Shown in pieces: positions 6,661 through 41,524 of a DNA stretch of 64,000 bases; position 1 is the first letter of the stretch; every line of letters begins with the position of its first letter. The notes beneath the pieces were generated by a model. The model saw only the letters and a program-made list of their open reading frames with translations, made no database searches and had not been told where the DNA came from. This stretch comes from Ischnura elegans (lineage: Eukaryota > Arthropoda > Insecta > Odonata > Coenagrionidae), in NCBI RefSeq assembly GCF_921293095.1, contig NC_060254.1, forward strand, positions 63,286,069 to 63,350,068. The letters are read 5' to 3'. The position numbers and the translations under genes were made by a program.

Positions 6661-7375
6661 AAATCATTCATGAATAGGAATGAGAGCATAGCTTTATAAG
6701 AGTTTAGAGAAAGACTAGTGAAGAGTCTGATCGAGAATGTAGCGCTATAAGGTGCGGAATAGTAGACTTGTAAGTGGAATGGAATAGAGTGGAGGTGTTC
6801 AAGATGTTTCCGTGAAGAATAGAGGAGAAACTTATGTGGCGGTTGAGGAAACGGATCTTCGAAGGTATAGGCATGGTGGATGAGAAGTTGTAGAGGAAAT
6901 AATGGAAGAGTCAGAGAGTTTGTATAGAGGGAATGCTAAAAACTGTGCCAGTGGGGAGCAGTGGCGCATATATACGGGGGGCGTGGGGGGCGCACACCCC
7001 ATTGCGGGGCTACCCGCATCGCCGAACATTGCAGAACCACAATTGTAACTTTTTTATACCATAATTTATCATGGTATTGTATATGCGTATAATAAGTTTA
7101 AATAAAACTATCTTAAATTTTGCATGTAACTTCATTATTTTTCATTACGATAAAGTACTGGTAGCTCAAGATATCTATTGCGCCCTCACTTTGCGTTCTT
7201 TTTTATCCGCTACTGGTGAGGAGAATGCTAGGAAATCGATGTGGAGGAAAAGAATAGGATTTTTAGATGAAATGAAAGGGAATAGGAATTTAAGTATGTT
7301 GAAGAGGGGAGTTAAAATTGGACTGCTAAATTCTTCACGTAAACCTACCTCAGCCGGTGAAATACCTTTATAATA
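6661..7375 (+). pseudogene. LINE ORF2 3' remnant, interrupted by a MITE
   Basis: The segment at 6705-6765 translates, through stops, to ERLVKSLIEN followed by VAL-stop-GAE. This matches the RLIKSLxWSVALYGAETW signature that ends the reverse transcriptase in RTE-type and related insect LINEs. At 7224-7375 the frame resumes with MWRKRIGFLDEMKGNRN and a tail also present at 26880-27040. Between them (6959-7215) lies a 257-bp hAT-like MITE with its own target duplication. Several in-frame stops show the copy is dead. Its 3' end joins a tandem duplication. Confidence 0.65.
6959..7215. mobile_element. hAT-like MITE nested in LINE
   Basis: The 257-bp element begins CAGTGGCGCATATAT and ends TTTTATCCGCTACTG, the inverse of CAGTAGCGGATAAAA. 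It is flanked by 8-bp near-duplications GTGGGGAG (6951-6958) and GTGAGGAG (7216-7223). CAGNG ends and an 8-bp target site are hallmarks of the hAT superfamily. The family recurs in this window at 11997, 27108, 35027, 37551, 50025 and 51858. No transposase is encoded. Confidence 0.75.
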
Positions 7376-7737
7376 TACCTGCTCCAGTATTTTGCTTCAC
7401 CATTCAGTATTTAATTGAAATGAACGAGCGTTTTTGATGATAATTTTGATCTCATTAATGCTGTTTCCTATATGGTTTCCATGTTTTACAATTATAATAA
7501 TCTTGGTTACCAATTAATGCAATTAAAGCTTTGGGTCCTAAGTGTCCTACCTAAAATACCTTAATAATATACCTGCTCTAGTATATGCTTTCTCCGTCCA
7601 GTATTTAATTGAAATGAACAAACCCTTTTTGTGATAATTTTGTCTCATTAAGGTCGTTTCCGAAATGGTTTCCATGTTTTACAGCTGTAATAATCTTGAT
7701 TACCAATTAATGCAAATGAAGCTTTTGGGTCCTTAGT
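7360..7737 (+). repeat. 194-bp tandem duplication
   Basis: Unit 1 (7360-7553) and unit 2 (7554-7737) both start AAATACCTTW and share TATTTAATTGAAATGAAC, TGGTTTCCATGTTTTACA, TACCAATTAATGCAA and TTGGGTCC, with scattered substitutions and small indels. The unit begins exactly at the 3' tail of the upstream LINE, so the duplication probably involved the LINE end. Confidence 0.85.
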
Positions 7738-9488
7738 CTCCGTGGGTTGGCTTTTTTTTCTTTCTCAGTCTGCTACTCCCTCTTTTTGGACATATTTGAC
7801 CGCGGCGCAGTCTGCCATTCCTATAAATCTCCTCGCGGAAGAGACTCATAACCTCCCCTCCTCCCTCTCCTCCTCTATAGCCTCTCCTCCCCTTCCCACC
7901 ACGCCCATGCGATAACGTGCGGTTAAAAATAAAATGCTCCCTCCTCCCCATTTGAATTTCATGGATTTTTTTTTACCTCCAGCCACCACATCGTGACTGG
8001 CCGCTCGGCCCGCTTTTCCTGGGCAAAGTTTGATAGACTCCTATCTCATCGTGTTAAGGGAACTTGCCGAAAGTGTTTAAGAGGAGCCCGTTTTGGGATA
8101 TCGTTTTATTCCTCCCCTTCCTCCATTAGGTGGGCTCAAGGTTGACCGCGGCCAATGGCGCCGTGTTTCGGTCAGTTGGCTATAACTGCGCCGAGGGGGC
8201 ACAAGGAAACACGCGAGATCCATCTCGCTCGAATTATTTTTTTTCTCCCGAGGAGAAAACTCGCGGGATACAAGGTGTCCACCCACTCGCATCTAGAAAA
8301 GAAATAGGTTGAAGGTCAGCGCTTTGATCATTGCTTTCAACTTAATTTAGGGCTGTATTCGCAGAGTGTAATCGGTTATATGATAGGGGAAAAGATTGGC
8401 TAAGAACTAATGTCATATTTAATGATCGGTTGTCCATCGGAGTGATTTGGTCAAAGAAAATCGTTTCTATTCGCTGCCAACTCTTTTAACGCCTTGATGG
8501 TGTTCCCTTGCTAAATGCCTAACACTCTTGTCAATAAAGTGGTTTGCTCTGTGTTTTTCCTTGTGTGAGTTCCTTGCCTTCATAATATCCTTTATTGCTT
8601 CTCTTATGCAATCGTGACATCTGATTTTGGTCCCTGTCGGATCTCTTTATACTGTTTGATTCTTTTTTGTGTCCCTCTCCTGTCTGATGTTCCGTTTACT
8701 GCTTTTTCGCTCTTCTGTCGCGGTAGACTCCTTAAGTTTCACTGGATACCATCGATATTCAAAATGCATTTCCAGGGGCTCATGCTTTTTTTTTCCAGTT
8801 TCAGTGTTGCGTTGTACCATTCGTCTTGCGTTAATGTACATATTATGCTATATTTAGCTTGGAGAACCAGGGATAATGGCTATAAGATATTCCTTCCGCC
8901 CTAGCTATCCCTCTTCCGACTTACCTACCCTGAATCTGAATACACTTCATATTTTCCCGTCCATAATATTCTTGACTAATTTTTCGTGGCCCGTACATAG
9001 AAACCATTCTCCTGATGTCCTTCTAGATCAAAGGTAGTTTTCGTGCTCTGAATTGTAGGGTTTGATGTTGGGCCTTTCGCTTATTATCCCTCGAGGGACC
9101 ACAACGGTAATTGATCCATCCATCAGTGCCTGCTAGCTTAGGAATAGATATGATTTCGGCATTTTTGACGGCCGAACAAGTGAATGTGGAGGAAAGTACC
9201 TAAATTTTTCGCACAATTTGCGACTGACACGTCCGCCATGAGAAATAACTTCCCTTTGGCGTCGCGTCAAGGTTGCATTAGTGCCACCTTTCTCACACGA
9301 TTTTTCCTATATTTTGTCTGAGCGTATATTTCGTCATTAAGACTTCTGAAAAGGATCGAGAATGTGGAAAAGATCTGCTCGAGTCTTTTAAAAAACATGA
9401 GTAAAGAACTAATTGATATGGCAATATTAGTTGTATCTGTTTCCATTCCAATCTTTGATGGATTTATGCATGCAAATTGTTACCCGAG
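7738..9488. other. Intergenic, GC-richer then AT-rich; no gene recognised
   Basis: From 7740 to 8330 the composition is pyrimidine-rich and relatively GC-rich (including CGCGGCC near 8148), then AT-rich. Open frames of 60-96 codons have no recognisable domain. Confidence 0.4.
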
Positions 9489-12932: not shown

Positions 12933-13127
12933 TAAAGGCTCCCACACACCTAAGCGGCCGCGGTGGCGGACTAGGCCGCGCGGCAGATACGCCCGCTAAG
13001 CGGGCACCACTGTGCACACACCTAAGCGGCCACACCTACGGAAATGCTGCACTTAAACCGAGAGCGATAAACCGACGAACTCCGACCATTCTCGAGGTGG
13101 ATCTTTATCCAGCAAGTCACTTGTACA

Positions 13128-14596
13128 ATGGAGGTGAATAATAGTTCTGATATTGAAGAGGAAGCAATACTATTAGCCCTGTTAATCGACGAAGAGCGAA
13201 GGCACAGGCTTTTTGATTCTTACCAGCTTCGGTCATACTTTAATGAGCAGTTTACAAAATTGCGATATCTATTATAGAAAGAAGCATCGAATATGGATTC
13301 ATGAAATAAATCTTTCTCGAGAGGAGGAAGGAGAACTTCACTCCCTCTACAAGAAGCTAAGGGAGCTTTATTTATTCTTTCGAATGGATTTAGAATGCTT
13401 TGACCAGCTTCTGCATGCTGTGAGGCACGATATCACGAAGCACTTCACTACTGTCGGCGTGAAAATGATGTGCCGCTGTACTTTGCCAATTTATATCTGG
13501 ACTTCTGTGCATGCCATAATAATGAATAATGTGTCACTTTAAAGAAAATTTTATTCTCAATTCTAATTATTTTTTTATTTTATGAAAAATTAAAAATGTA
13601 GACACGCGAGTACAATAAATGACTCAACATAAAATCAGCCGTTTTGTCAACTTCATGAACTTTGTAACTCAACCTAGGGAAAACTACAGCGTCTACAACA
13701 TTCATCTTCCACAATATGTTGCAAACATGATTATAGATTAATTAAGTGGCCTTTGCGAAGTTTTAAAACGCATATTTTGTTGTCAAATAACGAAAATGTT
13801 TAAACATTATATGTAGTCCTACAGTTTACCCAGAAAGAAAAAATAAAATTGATAGAAACACGTCTGACTTTATTTTCAATTTTTCTATGATCCAAAAATA
13901 CATGATTTTTATGTAGAATAGATTATGTATGGGCATTAAAAATACGCCGGAGGCGTTGACGTTGCCACGTCTTGCTCGCTAAATTTTACTTCCTGGTAAC
14001 CAGCACAGGTCTGGCGCGGCCCCGTTTGGCAAAATGACATTAATAAAAGTTATTGACATTCACAAATATAAATATTGTTATAAATTATGGATCATAGAAA
14101 ATTTTCAAAAAATTAGAAGTGTTTCTATCAATTATATTTTTTCTTTCGGGGTAAACTGTAGGACTAGATAGTGTTTAAACATTTTGTTATTTTGCAACAA
14201 AAAATGCGTTACAATAATACGCAAAAGCCATTTTATTAATGTACATTAATGGTTGCAACTTTTTGTAGAAGATGAATGTTGTTGACGTAGTAGTTTTCCC
14301 TAGGTTGAATTACAAAGTTCATGAAGTTGGCAGAACGGCTAATTTTATGGTGTGCGGAGTCATTTATTGCACTGGCACGTCTACATTTTTTATTGTTTCA
14401 TAAAACAAAAAATAAATAAGAATTGAGAATAAAATTTCCTGTAAAATGACGTATTACATATAATTATGGCATGCACTGAAGTCCAGATATAAATTTGCAA
14501 AGTACAGCGGCACATCATTTTGACGCTAACAGTAAGTACCGAAGACCTATAGGACCAACAGAGCGTCTAGCAGTTGCACTAAAATCGAAAAAATAG
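13128..14596 (+). pseudogene. Harbinger transposase N-terminal fragment, frameshifted and interrupted
   Basis: An ATG at 13128 opens with MEVNNSSDIEEEAILLALL, an acidic leader usual in HARBI1-like transposases. A frameshift between 13213 and 13270 moves the frame to the one encoding HRIWIHEINLSREEEGE, then LYKKLRE, then FRMDLECFDQLL. These match the conserved WVHPI..R...GEF..LY..LR....FF.YFRM....FD.LL pattern of this family. The frame runs to HFT at 13449, where a 1,082-bp element was inserted. After it, 14537-14593 encodes YRRPIGPTERLAVALK, the next conserved block, before a stop at 14594. The DDE catalytic region is missing. The product would have bound the Harbinger ends and moved the element; this copy cannot. 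Confidence 0.8.
13451..14532. mobile_element. Foldback (long-TIR) element nested in Harbinger, TA target
   Basis: The 1,082-bp insertion starts CTGTCGGCGTGAAAATGATG and ends with the inverse of CTGTTAGCGTCAAAATGATG. The two arms are about 450 bp each (13451 to about 13900, about 14077 to 14532) around a spacer of roughly 180 bp. The flanking dinucleotides are TA (13449-13450) and TA (14533-14534). Removing the element and one TA restores the transposase frame between HFT and KYRRP. A TA target and long inverted arms point to a Tc1/mariner-mobilised MITE. It has no open frame of note. Confidence 0.85.
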
Positions 14597-15849
14597 TAGA
14601 AGAATTAAAATATCAGTCTATTTATGTACTTCACTCGCTAGCTACGCTAAATGAAATAATGTTATTGAAATCGTGCACAAAATTATGATTTTTGAAAGCA
14701 TTATTTTCTTCTGATGGACTATTCGTATATGCCAATACAGATATAATTAAAATACCAATATTTTGAGTGTAATAAAAAGCAAACTTTTACTAGGTTAAAG
14801 TATTAGGCTAACATTTACTTTTGTCAAAAAACCTTTCAAAATTTCATCATTTTGTTTGATTGATGGAACTGGGGATTGGGTTCCTAAATGAATTACTGTA
14901 AACAAATACCAGAATATTTAAATTTAAAGACTTTTATTCATTTAAATGGTTAATCGTTTAATGAACAATACATTTACGATTTGCAGTAACTTCCTAGACC
15001 TAATGCGCTTATATTTGCAGACTTAAGTTTAAATAAGAGGAAACCGAGATATGGATACATTTTATGGCTCATTATTTTTAAACATCAGCCTCAATATAAA
15101 CCTCTTCTGGTTTATGAATGTTTTCGTAAATAAAGGTACCTACATAGTAAATAAATACGTAGGTACTTCATGGTTCCAATGGTCTATACAAAAGCGTTGT
15201 ATTTTTACGGCTAATTGGTCTCTGATGTTTCAATCCTATATTTTTTCTATAGAAGCGTCTTCTAGCATATTTGAGCATTTGCTTCACACACATTGTTAAT
15301 TTCAGGTAACTAAAATATTGAAATGGCTCAGGCTCGCGAGCGATTTTCAAAAGACAAAAAAGACTTCAATTGGCAAGTAATGCATGCGTTCTTTGATCTT
15401 TTATAAACCGCAAATTGAATTATTTCAATTATGAATCATCATCGGAGAAGGTACCTGGACAACCAATTTTTAGGGCTACAATGGGTCGAAATATACTTAA
15501 AATTTTCCTCATGTAATTGTCTTCTGATGATTACAAAAAAACTCAGAAGCAAAGTCTATGTCATGCAAATGTTAACAGACACATATTTAGACCGTTTCGT
15601 GTTTGCGTAGCCCTATTTCGCCAAGGCAATCCATTGGAAAATTGAAACTTTGTAGGCGTGAGCAAACGCGGCCTGCGGCCAAACTCGACAGGTCGCGTTC
15701 GGCCGCCACCGCGGCGGCCAACCGCTGCACAGGCCGCGGTCGCGCCCGCTAGGCCGCTCTGGTGTGTGTGAAACCATTGAACGCTATATTGATAGTTGGC
15801 CGCGTACCGCGGCCGCCACCGCGGCCGCTCAGGTGTGTGGGAGCCTTAA

Positions 15850-23873: not shown

Positions 23874-26137
23874 GTAGGCGATATTCTTCGAAATTCTCTC
23901 GTGAAGTGCTCAATTTGAAGTTTACGTTAAAATACTGTACTCGCTGGCATTGGTTTGTTTTCTACAATTGAAGCTGCGGGAATAGTTTGATTCTATTAAT
24001 AGCTGACTTGGAATTGGTCGTTTTTGTCCAATTTTTATTTGTTTTCTGTTGAGACATGGCCCTTTTTTTTGAGAATTCACATAGGTAAAATTTTAGTCTA
24101 CATAACTGATATAGTAAATTGAAAAAAAAATATGTGAAAGAAATCATTTACCGCGTCTACCAAGTTGTTTATTATGTTTCTCCTTTTCAAACTTCCTTAT
24201 TATTCAATTACTTCCGGTACTTATCGTTAAATCAGTGGTTTTGCACATTTTAGTTTATGTAACTCTATGGTCGCACTATTACTGTGATTTTTTAAAATGA
24301 CCGCGCTGTTTATTACAAAGGTAGTGATTTTCAACTTGCGTCATGCCACGTTCGATTTCGTTGACATTTTATATTTTGAGTCAAAAGAGGGAAATCGAAT
24401 TCATGGGAATCAGAATTAGCGTTATTGCATACCATTTGAAACGTGGAGCTCATGGACCGTTCACAAAGCGTGAGTTATTATCTCTCGGAGAAATTTTGTC
24501 TGGCAGTTTTCTAGTTAAATCCTCTATTAAATTTTTTTACGTTCTCCAATTAACAAAATAATTTTACAAAAATAAAATTCAAAGTAATTGAAGTTTAATT
24601 GAAGTAGCAAGGCCTACTGAATGCATATCTCTTCTTATAGAATCAGTATTAGAACTATGGATATCCTCTCCGGTATTGCATACTAATTGCTCTTTATTAA
24701 TAAGATCATTCTGGGGAAAATTATATTTTTAACTTTCATTCCCATGCTTCCATCTGTTAAGAATAAGGTAAATCATAGGCGATTTCCGGAAATTCATTAA
24801 TGCACGCTCAGCTCAATTACTATTTCGTGAAAATAGTCCAAAATTCACGTGGGTGTTCCTTTTGGAAAAGTTCCAATGTTAGCTTGACGTAATATCTGAA
24901 AGATAGCGTCCCTTTTTCTTTTGTGCTGCTATTAAATTTTTGGAGCATCAGTTTTTACTCCTCTCTGCGTATTGCCAGAATCTAATCGGTACATGTTTTT
25001 AAAACATTTTTTTGATGACTATAATGCAATATTTCGTCATCTTCAAGTTTGTGTCGGGGGAAAGAGAATTACTTTTTCCACCTCTATTAGTGAAGGGAGA
25101 GTCAATAATTGTTATTCAGGGAAAAAGGAAATAGCTGCCTAAAGAAAAATCTCGTGAAAAGCATGGCCGAAAAAGTGGGAGTTTCGAATAATGGCTGGTA
25201 CAAGCAGCAGAGGCGACTATCGGGTGCCTCATGCAAGTGGCGATAGTTCGGAAATTAAAGGGTAGTACAAACTAAATAAGCTAAGTACATTAGCTACAGT
25301 TTTTTTACGCGAAGTCTGTGATTCTCATTTGAATGCATGGTCGTCTTAATAATTTAAATTTCCAAATAAAAGTTATTTCCATGAGTGGAATAATAAGTTG
25401 GCTCGGAATGAAGGAATCTTCAATTGTTATGACTTTCCAGTAATATCAAGGAATTACAGATGATTACAACGTTTTTTTCCATATTTTGCGCGTTGTTTCC
25501 ATCAGGTTAACGATTGACACCATTTTACCCTAAATAAATATAATTTTTTCAAAGTGTCATGGAAACCATTTAATAAAGTTTATACTAGGGAGGGATAAAT
25601 ACGTGATTCTCGACAAAGTTGACTAGACAACATAATTCTTGACTGCTAATCTTTGCATTTCCATGAGTTTATCCATAGGTTTTCTTTGGGTAATGTGAAG
25701 AAGAGACTTTTTTGGGTTCGGGTAGTTCCAAAAGAATTTCGAAAATGAAGGAATGGTTATAATTAAAACTTATCAGTCTTATGATCATAAAATGGGTACG
25801 ATCGAGAAAATTATCTGCCAAAATGATGGCCTATTTCCCTTCTTTATGTTGCTTTGCCCCTTGTTTTTATAGTTTTAAAGGAGGGTAATTTGCTTGAAAG
25901 AGTGTTAAGGAAAGAAGCCATCACCAATCGGGTGATGTGAATCAAAATCCTTTGTAAGCTATCATTAAAAATGTAGTTAACTCTAATTTTATCATTTTTA
26001 TAATCATAATTGCGTGGTATCATAAAAAAACCAATGCCAGCAGTTGGTGTATGGGAGGGAGAAGTCTTAGGAGTTCCCGTATGACCAATTCTAACACCTT
26101 ACGACCACGTTCTCTTCCCCTCTTCACCCTCACGCAG
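23874..26137 (+). other. Intron 1 of cuticle gene 1 (2,264 bp)
   Basis: Donor GTAGGC at 23874; acceptor CTCACGCAG ending at 26137, preceded by a pyrimidine-rich tract TCTCTTCCCCTCTTCACC. Phase 0. The interior is AT-rich, with no recognised repeat or other gene. Confidence 0.8.
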
Positions 26138-26596
26138 CACCTGGCCGTCATCTGCCTGCTCTTCGCTGTCGCCAGCGCCGGACTCATCCCCGCCACCACC
26201 TTCTTGAGGACCCCCAGCCTGGACAGCGCCGTCATCAAGTCCGAGCGCCTGGGAGGCAACTTTGCCTACTCCAGCGTCGAGGGCCACTCTTACGCCGCCG
26301 TCGCCCCTGTCGTCCAGCACGTGGCCACCCCTGTTGCCGTCTCCTACCACGCCCACGCCCCCGTTGTCACCGGCTACACCGCTCACGTCGGAGCCCCCAC
26401 GTTCGTGGCCGCTGCCCCGGCTTACGCCCACCACGGCTATCCCCTGCACGCCTACCCTGCCCTGGGCTTCGCCCCCGCCGTCATCGGTGAGGCCCCCGTC
26501 GCCACCCCTGTGGCCGAGGCTCCCGCACCCGTCGAGGCTGCACCAGCCCCCGCCGCCGACGCCGCCTCTGACAGCGTCGAAGTCGAAGCCGCCTAA
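26138..26596 (+). CDS. Cuticle gene 1, exon 2: alanine-rich secreted cuticular protein, retinin/CPLCA-like
   Basis: With exon 1 this gives 154 aa. Residues 1-16 are a signal peptide (MKHLAVICLLFAVASA), cleaved before Gly-17. Residues of about 25-60 (SLDSAVIKSERLGGNFAYS and PVVQHVATPVAVSYHA) resemble the retinin-like domain of the CPLCA group of cuticular proteins. The rest is low-complexity A/P/H/Y sequence with HAHAPV and APAYAHHGYP, and a tail of APAPVEAAPAP ending in acidic EVEAA. Such proteins are secreted by epidermis and built into cuticle or lens surface. Codon use is strongly C/G-ending, unlike the surrounding DNA, which argues for high expression. The frame stays open upstream to 26051, but an in-frame ATG there would drop the signal peptide, so the spliced start is preferred. 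Family assignment is from pattern memory. Confidence 0.85.
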   Translation, partial: HLAVICLLFAVASAGLIPATTFLRTPSLDSAVIKSERLGGNFAYSSVEGHSYAAVAPVVQHVATPVAVSYHAHAPVVTGYTAHVGAPTFVAAAPAYAHHGYPLHAYPALGFAPAVIGEAPVATPVAEAPAPVEAAPAPAADAASDSVEVEAA

Positions 26597-32234: not shown

Positions 32235-32550
32235 TGTGCATAATTAACTTCAAGACATTTTGTGCCTTTAATATTGTTTGTGGTGTTAGCGAGATTCGTT
32301 ACAAGGTCCCATTTTCGTAGTTACAGTTCATTTTGATTTTGTTAAAACATAAGTTTTGAATGGATTTGCCAAGGAGATTTAGGTTAATGCATAATTGGGA
32401 ATGTACATAATCAACTTCACGACATTTTGTATCTTAATATTGTTTGTGGTGTTAGCGAGATTCGTTACAAGGTCCCGTTTTCGTAGTTACAGTTCATTTT
32501 GATTTTGTTAAAACATAAGTTTTGAATGGATTTGCCATGGAGATTTAGGT
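32235..32550 (+). repeat. 167-bp tandem duplication, recent
   Basis: Unit 1 is 32235-32384 and unit 2 is 32402-32550. From TTGTTTGTGGTGTTAGCGAG through AGATTTAGGT the two differ at only a couple of positions (CCCATTTTCG against CCCGTTTTCG; CCAAGG against CCATGG). That near-identity implies recent origin. Confidence 0.9.
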
Positions 32551-38003: not shown

Positions 38004-38618
38004 TTTCGTCTGAAGATTTTCACAGCTTCTTTTATCTATGTTGGTGGTGGTTTTCGGGTATTGCTGTGTAGAAAACATTTTTACTCGACGTTTCACTCCT
38101 CCTACTCCCCTTCAATCTATGGGAGTGTATGAGGTTCCCTGCTGCTGCGGAAGAAGCTACGTGGGGCAGAGCAAGCGTTCAATCTCCCAAAGGCTTAAGG
38201 AGCACGAAACGGCGTTAAAATTACATCAGTGGGACGCATCAGCAGTTGCTGAACATTTTGCCTCCAGCCCTGGGCATAGAATAATGTTTGACGCTACACG
38301 GGTATTAGCGAAGACGGAAGAATACCATCCGCGTCTTATACGTGAATCCATCGAGATAGCGAAAAGACCTAATAACTTTAACAGGGAGGATGGGTATAAC
38401 CTCAGCCGTATATGGAGAGGGTTCCTAGCACAATATAATGACCAACGGCTATCGCCTAAAATTCAAATCCGGCACAACAATGGGTAGCGAAAAACATGTA
38501 TAAGCTCGGGACGAGAATAAATTCCTTCCATTATCTTGATAACGCTCCCAGTAGGAGGAGTGAAACGTCGAGTAAAAATGTTTTCTACACAGCAATAACC
38601 GAAAACCACCACCAACAT
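38004..38618 (+). mobile_element. Penelope-like retroelement, 5'-truncated, with inverted terminal repeats
   Basis: A 12-bp target duplication AATTATTATAAT brackets the insertion (37992-38003 and 38619-38630). Two 69-bp arms, 38038-38106 and 38550-38618, are near-perfect inverse copies carrying GTGAAACGTCGAG. A 34-bp unpaired extension sits at the left (38004-38037). Between the arms lies a GIY-YIG coding frame. An inverted terminal repeat at one end plus a short extension is the common form of truncated Penelope-like insertions. The reverse-transcriptase part is missing. Confidence 0.85.
38107..38487 (+). pseudogene. GIY-YIG endonuclease domain of a Penelope-like element
   Basis: The frame is open from 38038 to the stop at 38485-38487 (149 codons), but its first 23 codons fall inside the inverted arm, so real coding starts near 38107. 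Motifs are GVYEV (the GIY position), CCCG, then SYVGQ (the YIG position), an Arg-rich helix KRSISQRLKEH, AVAEHF, PGHRIMF, and LIRESIEIAKR with the metal-binding Glu. NREDGYNLSRIWRGFL closes the domain, as in Penelope-like proteins. In an intact element this endonuclease nicks the target for target-primed reverse transcription. Here it is undamaged but has no reverse transcriptase attached, so it cannot transpose alone. Confidence 0.85.
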
Positions 38619-40918: not shown

Positions 40919-41524
40919 TCACCGCTCCTCCTCCTTCGCCTCATCCTCCTTGGCCTTCTCGCCTGCGTCCGCCGCCGTCTCTTTTGGCGCCTCCTGGGCC
41001 TTAGCCTCGCCGGGGAGCGCGGGGGCGTGGAACGCGGGCCCGAAGAAGTACCCCGGGTGTGCGAACGGATGGTGGATGAACGGAGTGGGGTCCGGGAGCG
41101 GGAAGGCGTACGGATGGTAGAGTGAATAGAAGGGCAGCGTGGTGGCAACCACCGTGGGCGCGGAGGAGCTGTTGGTGACGGTCGCACCCGGGAAGTTGAC
41201 CGCGACGTGGGTGATGGGCAGGGCGGGAGGGACGGGAAGGTGCGGCGGTGCGGGCGTGGATGCAGCGGGTGCGGAGTCGGCGTCGCCGGGTGCCTCGGTG
41301 GAGGCGGCGGCTGAAGAGTCCTTGCCCTCGGCGGCCTTGCCCGCGTTGTGGAAGATGGGGTGGTCTAAGGGCAGGGAGTAGGCGGCGCTGGGGAGCAGGT
41401 TGCCGTCCGACCGCACTATGATGTTGTAGACCCTTGGGGTGCGCAGGAGAGGGAGCGGGTGGGCGAAGAAGCCCGCCTGGGCGACACCCGCCACCAGGGC
41501 GGCGAAGAGAATTGCAGCGCAGGC
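40919..41524 (-). CDS. Cuticle gene 2, exon 2: secreted Ala/Pro-rich protein with charged tail
   Basis: The acceptor CATTTAG ends at 41525 on the minus strand and the exon starts at 41524 with Ala-Cys-Ala-Ala. With exon 1 the product is 203 aa and opens MKACAAILFAALVAGVAQA, a signal peptide cleaved before Gly-20. The mature part has FFAHPLPLLRTPRVYNI, then a Ser/Ala/Pro-rich linker (STEAPGDADSAPAAS). Next come LPITHVAVNFPGATV, a His/Pro/Phe-rich block (YHPYAFPLPDPTPFIHHPFA), and a Lys/Glu tail ending EAKEEER before TGA. This looks like a low-complexity cuticular or other secreted structural protein. I see no Rebers-Riddiford chitin-binding motif. GC-rich codon use and the Met-Lys first exon make it a likely relative of the 26-kb gene, though the mature sequences are not closely alike. 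Function is inferred only from this pattern. Confidence 0.8.
   Translation of the reverse strand, partial: ACAAILFAALVAGVAQAGFFAHPLPLLRTPRVYNIIVRSDGNLLPSAAYSLPLDHPIFHNAGKAAEGKDSSAAASTEAPGDADSAPAASTPAPPHLPVPPALPITHVAVNFPGATVTNSSSAPTVVATTLPFYSLYHPYAFPLPDPTPFIHHPFAHPGYFFGPAFHAPALPGEAKAQEAPKETAADAGEKAKEDEAKEEER

Follow-up and report, generated by a model that had tools for sequence, protein, structure and literature searches.

A foldback element inside a Harbinger-type element of Ischnura elegans: a composite with standalone relatives, empty sites and, very probably, a single origin

Non-autonomous members of PIF/Harbinger (PHIS superfamily) have been described as having TWA target site duplications, inverted ends and remnants of a transposase, and the same account gives the 3-bp TWA duplication as the signature of PIF/Harbinger (PMC4482050). 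The Ischnura elegans element reported here shares all of these features but, as compared to the elements in that account, harbors an entire foreign foldback, joined in one subfamily by a hAT-like MITE. MER6, as presented in PMC6887750, is a Tc1/Mariner MITE with a SINE-derived segment, the SINE being related to those of bony fish; like the composite studied here, it is a non-autonomous DNA transposon that amplified part of another mobile element, whereas the passenger in I. elegans is an entire DNA element, flanked by target duplications and accompanied by empty sites, standalone sisters and a second capture. AgaP2-P12MITE of Anopheles, described as a composite P-element MITE with ends from two P subfamilies (PMC1562414), is likewise a MITE built from parts of two elements; in the I. 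elegans composite, in contrast, both ends are Harbinger ends and the foreign element is internal. Galileo, a foldback-like element of the P superfamily (PMC3688188), has long inverted arms in common with the foldback, which differs from Galileo, as characterized in that source, in having TA duplications and no recognised transposase. Among published MITEs of nested or composite make-up that multiply as one unit, MER6 and AgaP2-P12MITE were the nearest found; the subscription literature lay mostly outside this search, and absence from print is not claimed. Mechanistically the case is ordinary; what is unusual is how completely it is documented, and the naive dating of the locus is reversed. Beyond the published parallels, it offers a complete passenger, a single genome that holds both empty sites and standalone sisters, and two successive captures.

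The window analyzed here is the whole 64,000-nucleotide stretch of DNA at C9:63286069-63350068 of the 1.72-Gb I. elegans genome, and all genome-wide counts refer to that genome. Direct reading of the sequence places the outer Harbinger-type element at window positions 12936-15846, interrupted at 13451-14532 by a foldback with long inverted repeats. The outer element is flanked by TAA target site duplications, read directly (12933-12935 on the left and 15847-15849 on the right), and has terminal inverted repeats of 34-35 bp (left, 12936-12969, + strand; right, 15813-15846, - strand); the ends at 12935-12969 and 15813-15847 are 97% complementary over 35 nt, so that the target site and inverted ends noted in the preliminary description are indeed retained. 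Its left part (12936-13450, +) has at least 42 matches in the genome (best 40 of 387 first-look candidates scored), and its right part (14533-15846, +), which is without a long open frame, has at least 48 (best 40 of 407 candidates scored). The foldback is bordered by TA on the left (13449-13450) and on the right (14533-14534; read directly and seen by comparison of the composites), and its previously proposed boundaries and TA flanks proved exact to the base. No second copy of either family was found inside the 64-kb window at E 1e-3. The window also contains tandem duplications at 7360-7741 and 32235-32550 (units of 194 and 166 bp, approx. 2 copies each). An open frame of 157 aa at 38014-38484 (+) contains a YVGQSKRSISQRLKEHE stretch that, by eye, we take to resemble the end of a GIY-YIG retroelement; it gave nothing above cut-off in Pfam. 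Two frames rich in Ala, Pro, Val and His, at 25958-26593 (+) and 40922-41524 (-), have signal-peptide-like stretches and no Pfam match at E 0.1, and are presumably, judged by eye, similar to arthropod cuticle proteins.

The only coding content of the outer element is the relic of a Harbinger transposase N-terminus (RKKHRIWIHE...DITKHFT; 13276-13449, +), continued beyond the foldback by KYRRPIGPTERLAVAL (14534-14581, +), which in empty copies is joined to the first block. The locus had been described as an interrupted Harbinger transposase; a Harbinger-type element it is, but with the N-terminal relic only, and rather than a transposase gene it represents a non-autonomous derivative shaped by deletion, in which the second ORF of PIF/Harbinger, with a Myb/SANT domain, would not be expected. 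As a protein query, the relic matched at least 93 places in the genome when the best 150 of 368 candidates were scored; by count, 36 of these places lie in the family itself. Ten of the 57 matches outside the family have a DDE_Tnp_4 match on the same strand, 1.2-1.7 kb further downstream (compared by eye, among 150 scored DDE_Tnp_4 matches), and these related frames probably link the relic with genuine Harbinger transposases. Comparison to Pfam models and to the PDB gave nothing relevant for the relic itself. No autonomous Harbinger element with the ends of this family was found through PF13359 among the best 150 of 2144 DDE_Tnp_4 candidates, these 150 matches having been compared by eye against the 62 exact outer ends among the matches listed (100 of 418). 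A related N-terminal family with 43% identity to the relic (L085) was found; its N-terminal frame was without a Pfam match, and no further transposase frame could be recognised by eye in 1.7 kb. Among the aligned copies, deletions of 6 and 12 bases in the relic are common to the window copy and C4:23829562-23832473 alone, and the stretch that follows GCACTAA is shortened only in these two.

Both families are found elsewhere in the genome, as the preliminary description had anticipated. The outer family carries AGGCTCCCACACACC-type ends, and 418 outer end sites were found genome-wide at up to 3 mismatches, some of which represent a variant with one fixed difference. These variant ends (AGGCTGCC for AGGCTCCC; e.g., G000:C1:805944) probably belong to a sister Harbinger family. 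Matching TWA duplications were present in 22 of the 26 outer copies that have both ends (12 TAA and 10 TTA).

The foldback is 1,082 bp long, with ends of the CTGTYGGCGTCAAAATGATG type (CTGTCGGCG... in the window copy, which lies on the + strand), and is itself non-autonomous. Its arms of approx. 450 bp align at 84%; in the window, the left arm (13451-13897, +) is 84.1% identical to the reverse complement of the right arm (14085-14532, -) over 453 columns, and the loop between them (13898-14084) holds short open frames only, according to the ORF list and the predicted structure. The predicted RNA fold of the foldback has an energy of -534.5 kcal/mol, a value that has no shuffle control at that length. 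The end pattern of the foldback matched 606 and 617 sites on the two strands at up to 1 mismatch, composites included, as compared to 0 for the reversed control pattern. When the best 40 of 2694 first-look candidates were scored, 26 foldbacks lay inside Harbinger composites and 14 outside. For all 14 standalone foldbacks that were fetched, no outer sequence was found within 300 bp on each side (E 1e-5), and the flanks read differently; TA was present on both sides in 11 of the 14, while L073, L074 and L081 were without TA on one side. In 25 of the 27 composites checked, the foldback is flanked by TA on either side; another has GT on the right, and the last was uncovered on the right. The foldback is a mobile family in its own right, with the TA-flanked copies elsewhere for which a search had been suggested; its TA duplication is that of Tc1/mariner elements but does not by itself fix the superfamily. 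Two of the foldbacks have themselves been interrupted. At C1:44426693-44429862 (L033/L048), an insert of approx. 250 bp, largely palindromic by eye, lies within the foldback, and the pieces around it overlap by 13 positions, which likely represent a target duplication. At C9:90808120-90812018 (L026/L059), a 731-bp insert is flanked by foldback pieces that overlap by 22 positions; on its reverse strand, and by eye, this insert resembles a fragment of a GIY-YIG-type or Penelope-like retroelement.

The position of the foldback within the outer element is common to many copies. We observed the foldback at the same base and in the same orientation in 29 outer copies, including the window copy. The left-junction pattern (up to 3 mismatches) gave 43 matches, 28 of which are Harbinger composites, i.e., all 27 matches at 0-2 mismatches and C6:122484337 at 3. 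The remaining 15, all at 3 mismatches, are absent from the Harbinger places found by the element and relic searches, and probably represent standalone foldbacks whose outside sequence resembles the pattern by chance. The right-junction pattern matched exactly at 26 places and with 1 mismatch at one more, 27 in all. The union of the two is 29 copies, with both junctions in 26, the left only in C2:44854623 and C8:2394414, and the right only in C2:143879002. Reversed control patterns for the left, right and empty junctions gave 0 matches, so that an arrangement found in 29 copies exceeds what chance would produce.

Empty copies, for which a search had been recommended, were also present. The empty junction was found at 5 places in the genome, each with a single TA and no footprint, and two further copies are free of the foldback but altered at the junction (C2:72870150, with a small deletion, and C6:121166403, with a gap of approx. 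six bases). The empty copies read TTCACTA|AGTACC or |AATACC, which gives FT-K/N-YRRP in frame, and at C11:35009714-35009950 the frame runs uninterrupted over the junction; the proposal that removal of the foldback plus one TA would rejoin the frame is thus borne out by natural copies. In total, 29 filled copies and 7 without the foldback were detected among 36 close copies, counts that cover copies near patterns drawn from young copies and miss older, diverged ones.

The presence of the foldback in 29 of 36 detected close copies is what one would see if it were an original part of the Harbinger family that was later lost from the empty copies. This reading has hardly any probability, as the five empties have a single TA, an in-frame junction and no footprint, and as 55 of the 57 distant relatives of the relic, judged from coordinates, continue through the junction with no more than small indels, the other two ending before it; the standalone foldbacks, 11 of 14 of which have TA on either side, also speak against it. 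The five read-through copies with a single TA and the 55 contiguous relatives together indicate that the foldback-free state is ancestral. According to the preliminary description, finding the same 1,082 bp in other copies would make the foldback part of the element and not a nested insertion; 29 copies carry it and 7 do not, and the choice turns out to be a false one, as the foldback is both an insertion and, by now, a part of the element.

The structure of the window copy, taken as a single locus, looks exactly as if the Harbinger element had arrived there first and the foldback had later jumped into it. We consider this order of events extremely improbable, as 28 other copies have the foldback at the same base and in the same orientation, with a junction common to all, and as the compared flanks are unrelated (no similarity at E 1e-5 among 60 flanks of 300 bp) while the copy on C4 is near-identical throughout. 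The window copy differs from C4:23829562 at 7 of 2,912 columns; the window copy has TAA and the C4 copy TTA, and their flanks are unrelated. This near-identity, together with the differing duplications and the unrelated flanks, indicates that the outer insertion at the window locus is recent and brought the foldback along. The nesting at this locus is inherited, and the Harbinger landing there came after the foldback had already joined the element. The relative date previously read from the nesting is therefore reversed, and of the proposed nested insertion, a separately mobile foldback within a Harbinger-type element stands, while a local event with the inner element as the youngest does not. 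Among transpositions of the two-element unit, that of the window copy is one of the latest. Three further pairs of copies, all filled, have outer distances below 0.003, and the nearest empty pair is at 0.0055; all four closest pairs are filled, and one of them carries both passengers.

The 29 copies with the foldback at the same base and in the same orientation point to a single insertion, after which the composite transposed as a unit. To compare the histories of the two parts, we used trees in which interrupted copies were entered as joined matched pieces. In the unrooted outer tree, which holds 23 filled and 5 empty copies (28 in total), all empties group together (support 0.971), and one branch thus divides filled from empty copies. 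Mean outer distances were 0.045 among filled copies, 0.058 among empty copies and 0.072 between filled and empty copies. In the foldback tree, a single clade (support 1.000) unites the 26 composite foldbacks against 14 standalone ones, which are the non-composites among the best 40 of 2694 candidates; standalone copies that would fall within the composite clade may exist beyond this sample. Inner and outer distance matrices were strongly correlated (n=23; Mantel r 0.90, p 0.0001, 9,999 permutations). Conversion between repeats is a generally known process, and the foldback could have entered one copy and then spread by gene conversion into Harbinger copies that were already resident elsewhere. 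Among copies with both ends, the TAA/TTA duplications match in 17 of the 21 filled copies and in all 5 empty ones; the four unmatched copies, all filled, fit with conversion, and they indicate that mutation or recombination affects some copies. Conversion in place, however, would mix inner and outer distances, which agree (r 0.90), and filled and empty copies split on one branch; we regard this spread by conversion as quite improbable, if somewhat less so than the two readings weighed above. Overall, these data make it very probable that the foldback inserted once, in an ancestral Harbinger copy, and that the composite then amplified as a unit.

A second passenger is present in three of the composites. 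An insert of approx. 183 bp, starting with CAGCGGTTCCCAAAC, was found at C9:90808120, C2:119469434 and C1:166645614, and in all three it is flanked on both sides by an 8-bp duplication, CACTAAGG. Among the 29 listed copies, the site is occupied in 3, carries a single CACTAAGG in 20 and is altered or interrupted in 6. The three two-passenger copies form a clade in the outer tree (support 1.000), and their flanks are without similarity. Of the 24 matches to the junction pattern of the second passenger, only these three are exact; the other 21 lie elsewhere and have 2-3 mismatches. Its inverted ends are CAGCGGTTCCCAAA, and the left-end pattern matched 157 and 168 sites in the genome at up to 1 mismatch. 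The length of the duplication and the ends suggest that the second passenger is a hAT MITE; the CAGCGGTTCCCAAA ends may correspond to the CAG-type ends of hAT elements. At G000:C19:21068780-21087202, matches to the MITE end (3 mismatches) recur every approx. 1,417 bp or at double that distance, eleven in number and all on one strand, a spacing suggestive of a tandem array that includes the hAT-like MITE.

The history that we propose would begin with a non-autonomous Harbinger-type element of approx. 1.8 kb, with terminal repeats and a truncated transposase N-terminus, that was active in the genome. A TA-targeting foldback MITE very probably inserted, once, at a TA inside the relic frame of a single copy. 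With its Harbinger ends still functional, the resulting 2.9-kb composite would have been cut and pasted by Harbinger transposase supplied in trans, the presumed mobilising enzyme. The composite very probably then multiplied to at least the 29 copies detected, and on one branch the hAT-like MITE joined as a second passenger, the larger composite moving again to give three copies. It is tempting to hypothesize that the composite is an accreting transposon lineage and that captured MITEs, chiefly the kilobase hairpin, aid their carrier by favoring transposition or escape from silencing; the pattern cited for such a benefit is 29 filled as compared to 7 unfilled copies detected, together with the filled state of all four closest pairs, a picture that search patterns drawn from young copies may favor. 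As one lucky founder gives the same picture, copy numbers do not tell the effect of the passenger on mobility, and we regard a benefit to the carrier as unlikely.

Chronologies based on nesting, as described in PMC5657132, take the interrupting element as the newer one, with overlapping activity and annotation noise given as caveats. In such chronologies, the one insertion described here, copied to at least 29 places, would count many times, and at the window locus the true order is the opposite of the nesting order. As the controls are found in one genome (i.e., empty sites, standalone passengers and a second capture), this family represents a clean example for testing and correcting nesting chronologies. 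The findings also suggest that a Harbinger element can bear cargo in the form of a kilobase hairpin.
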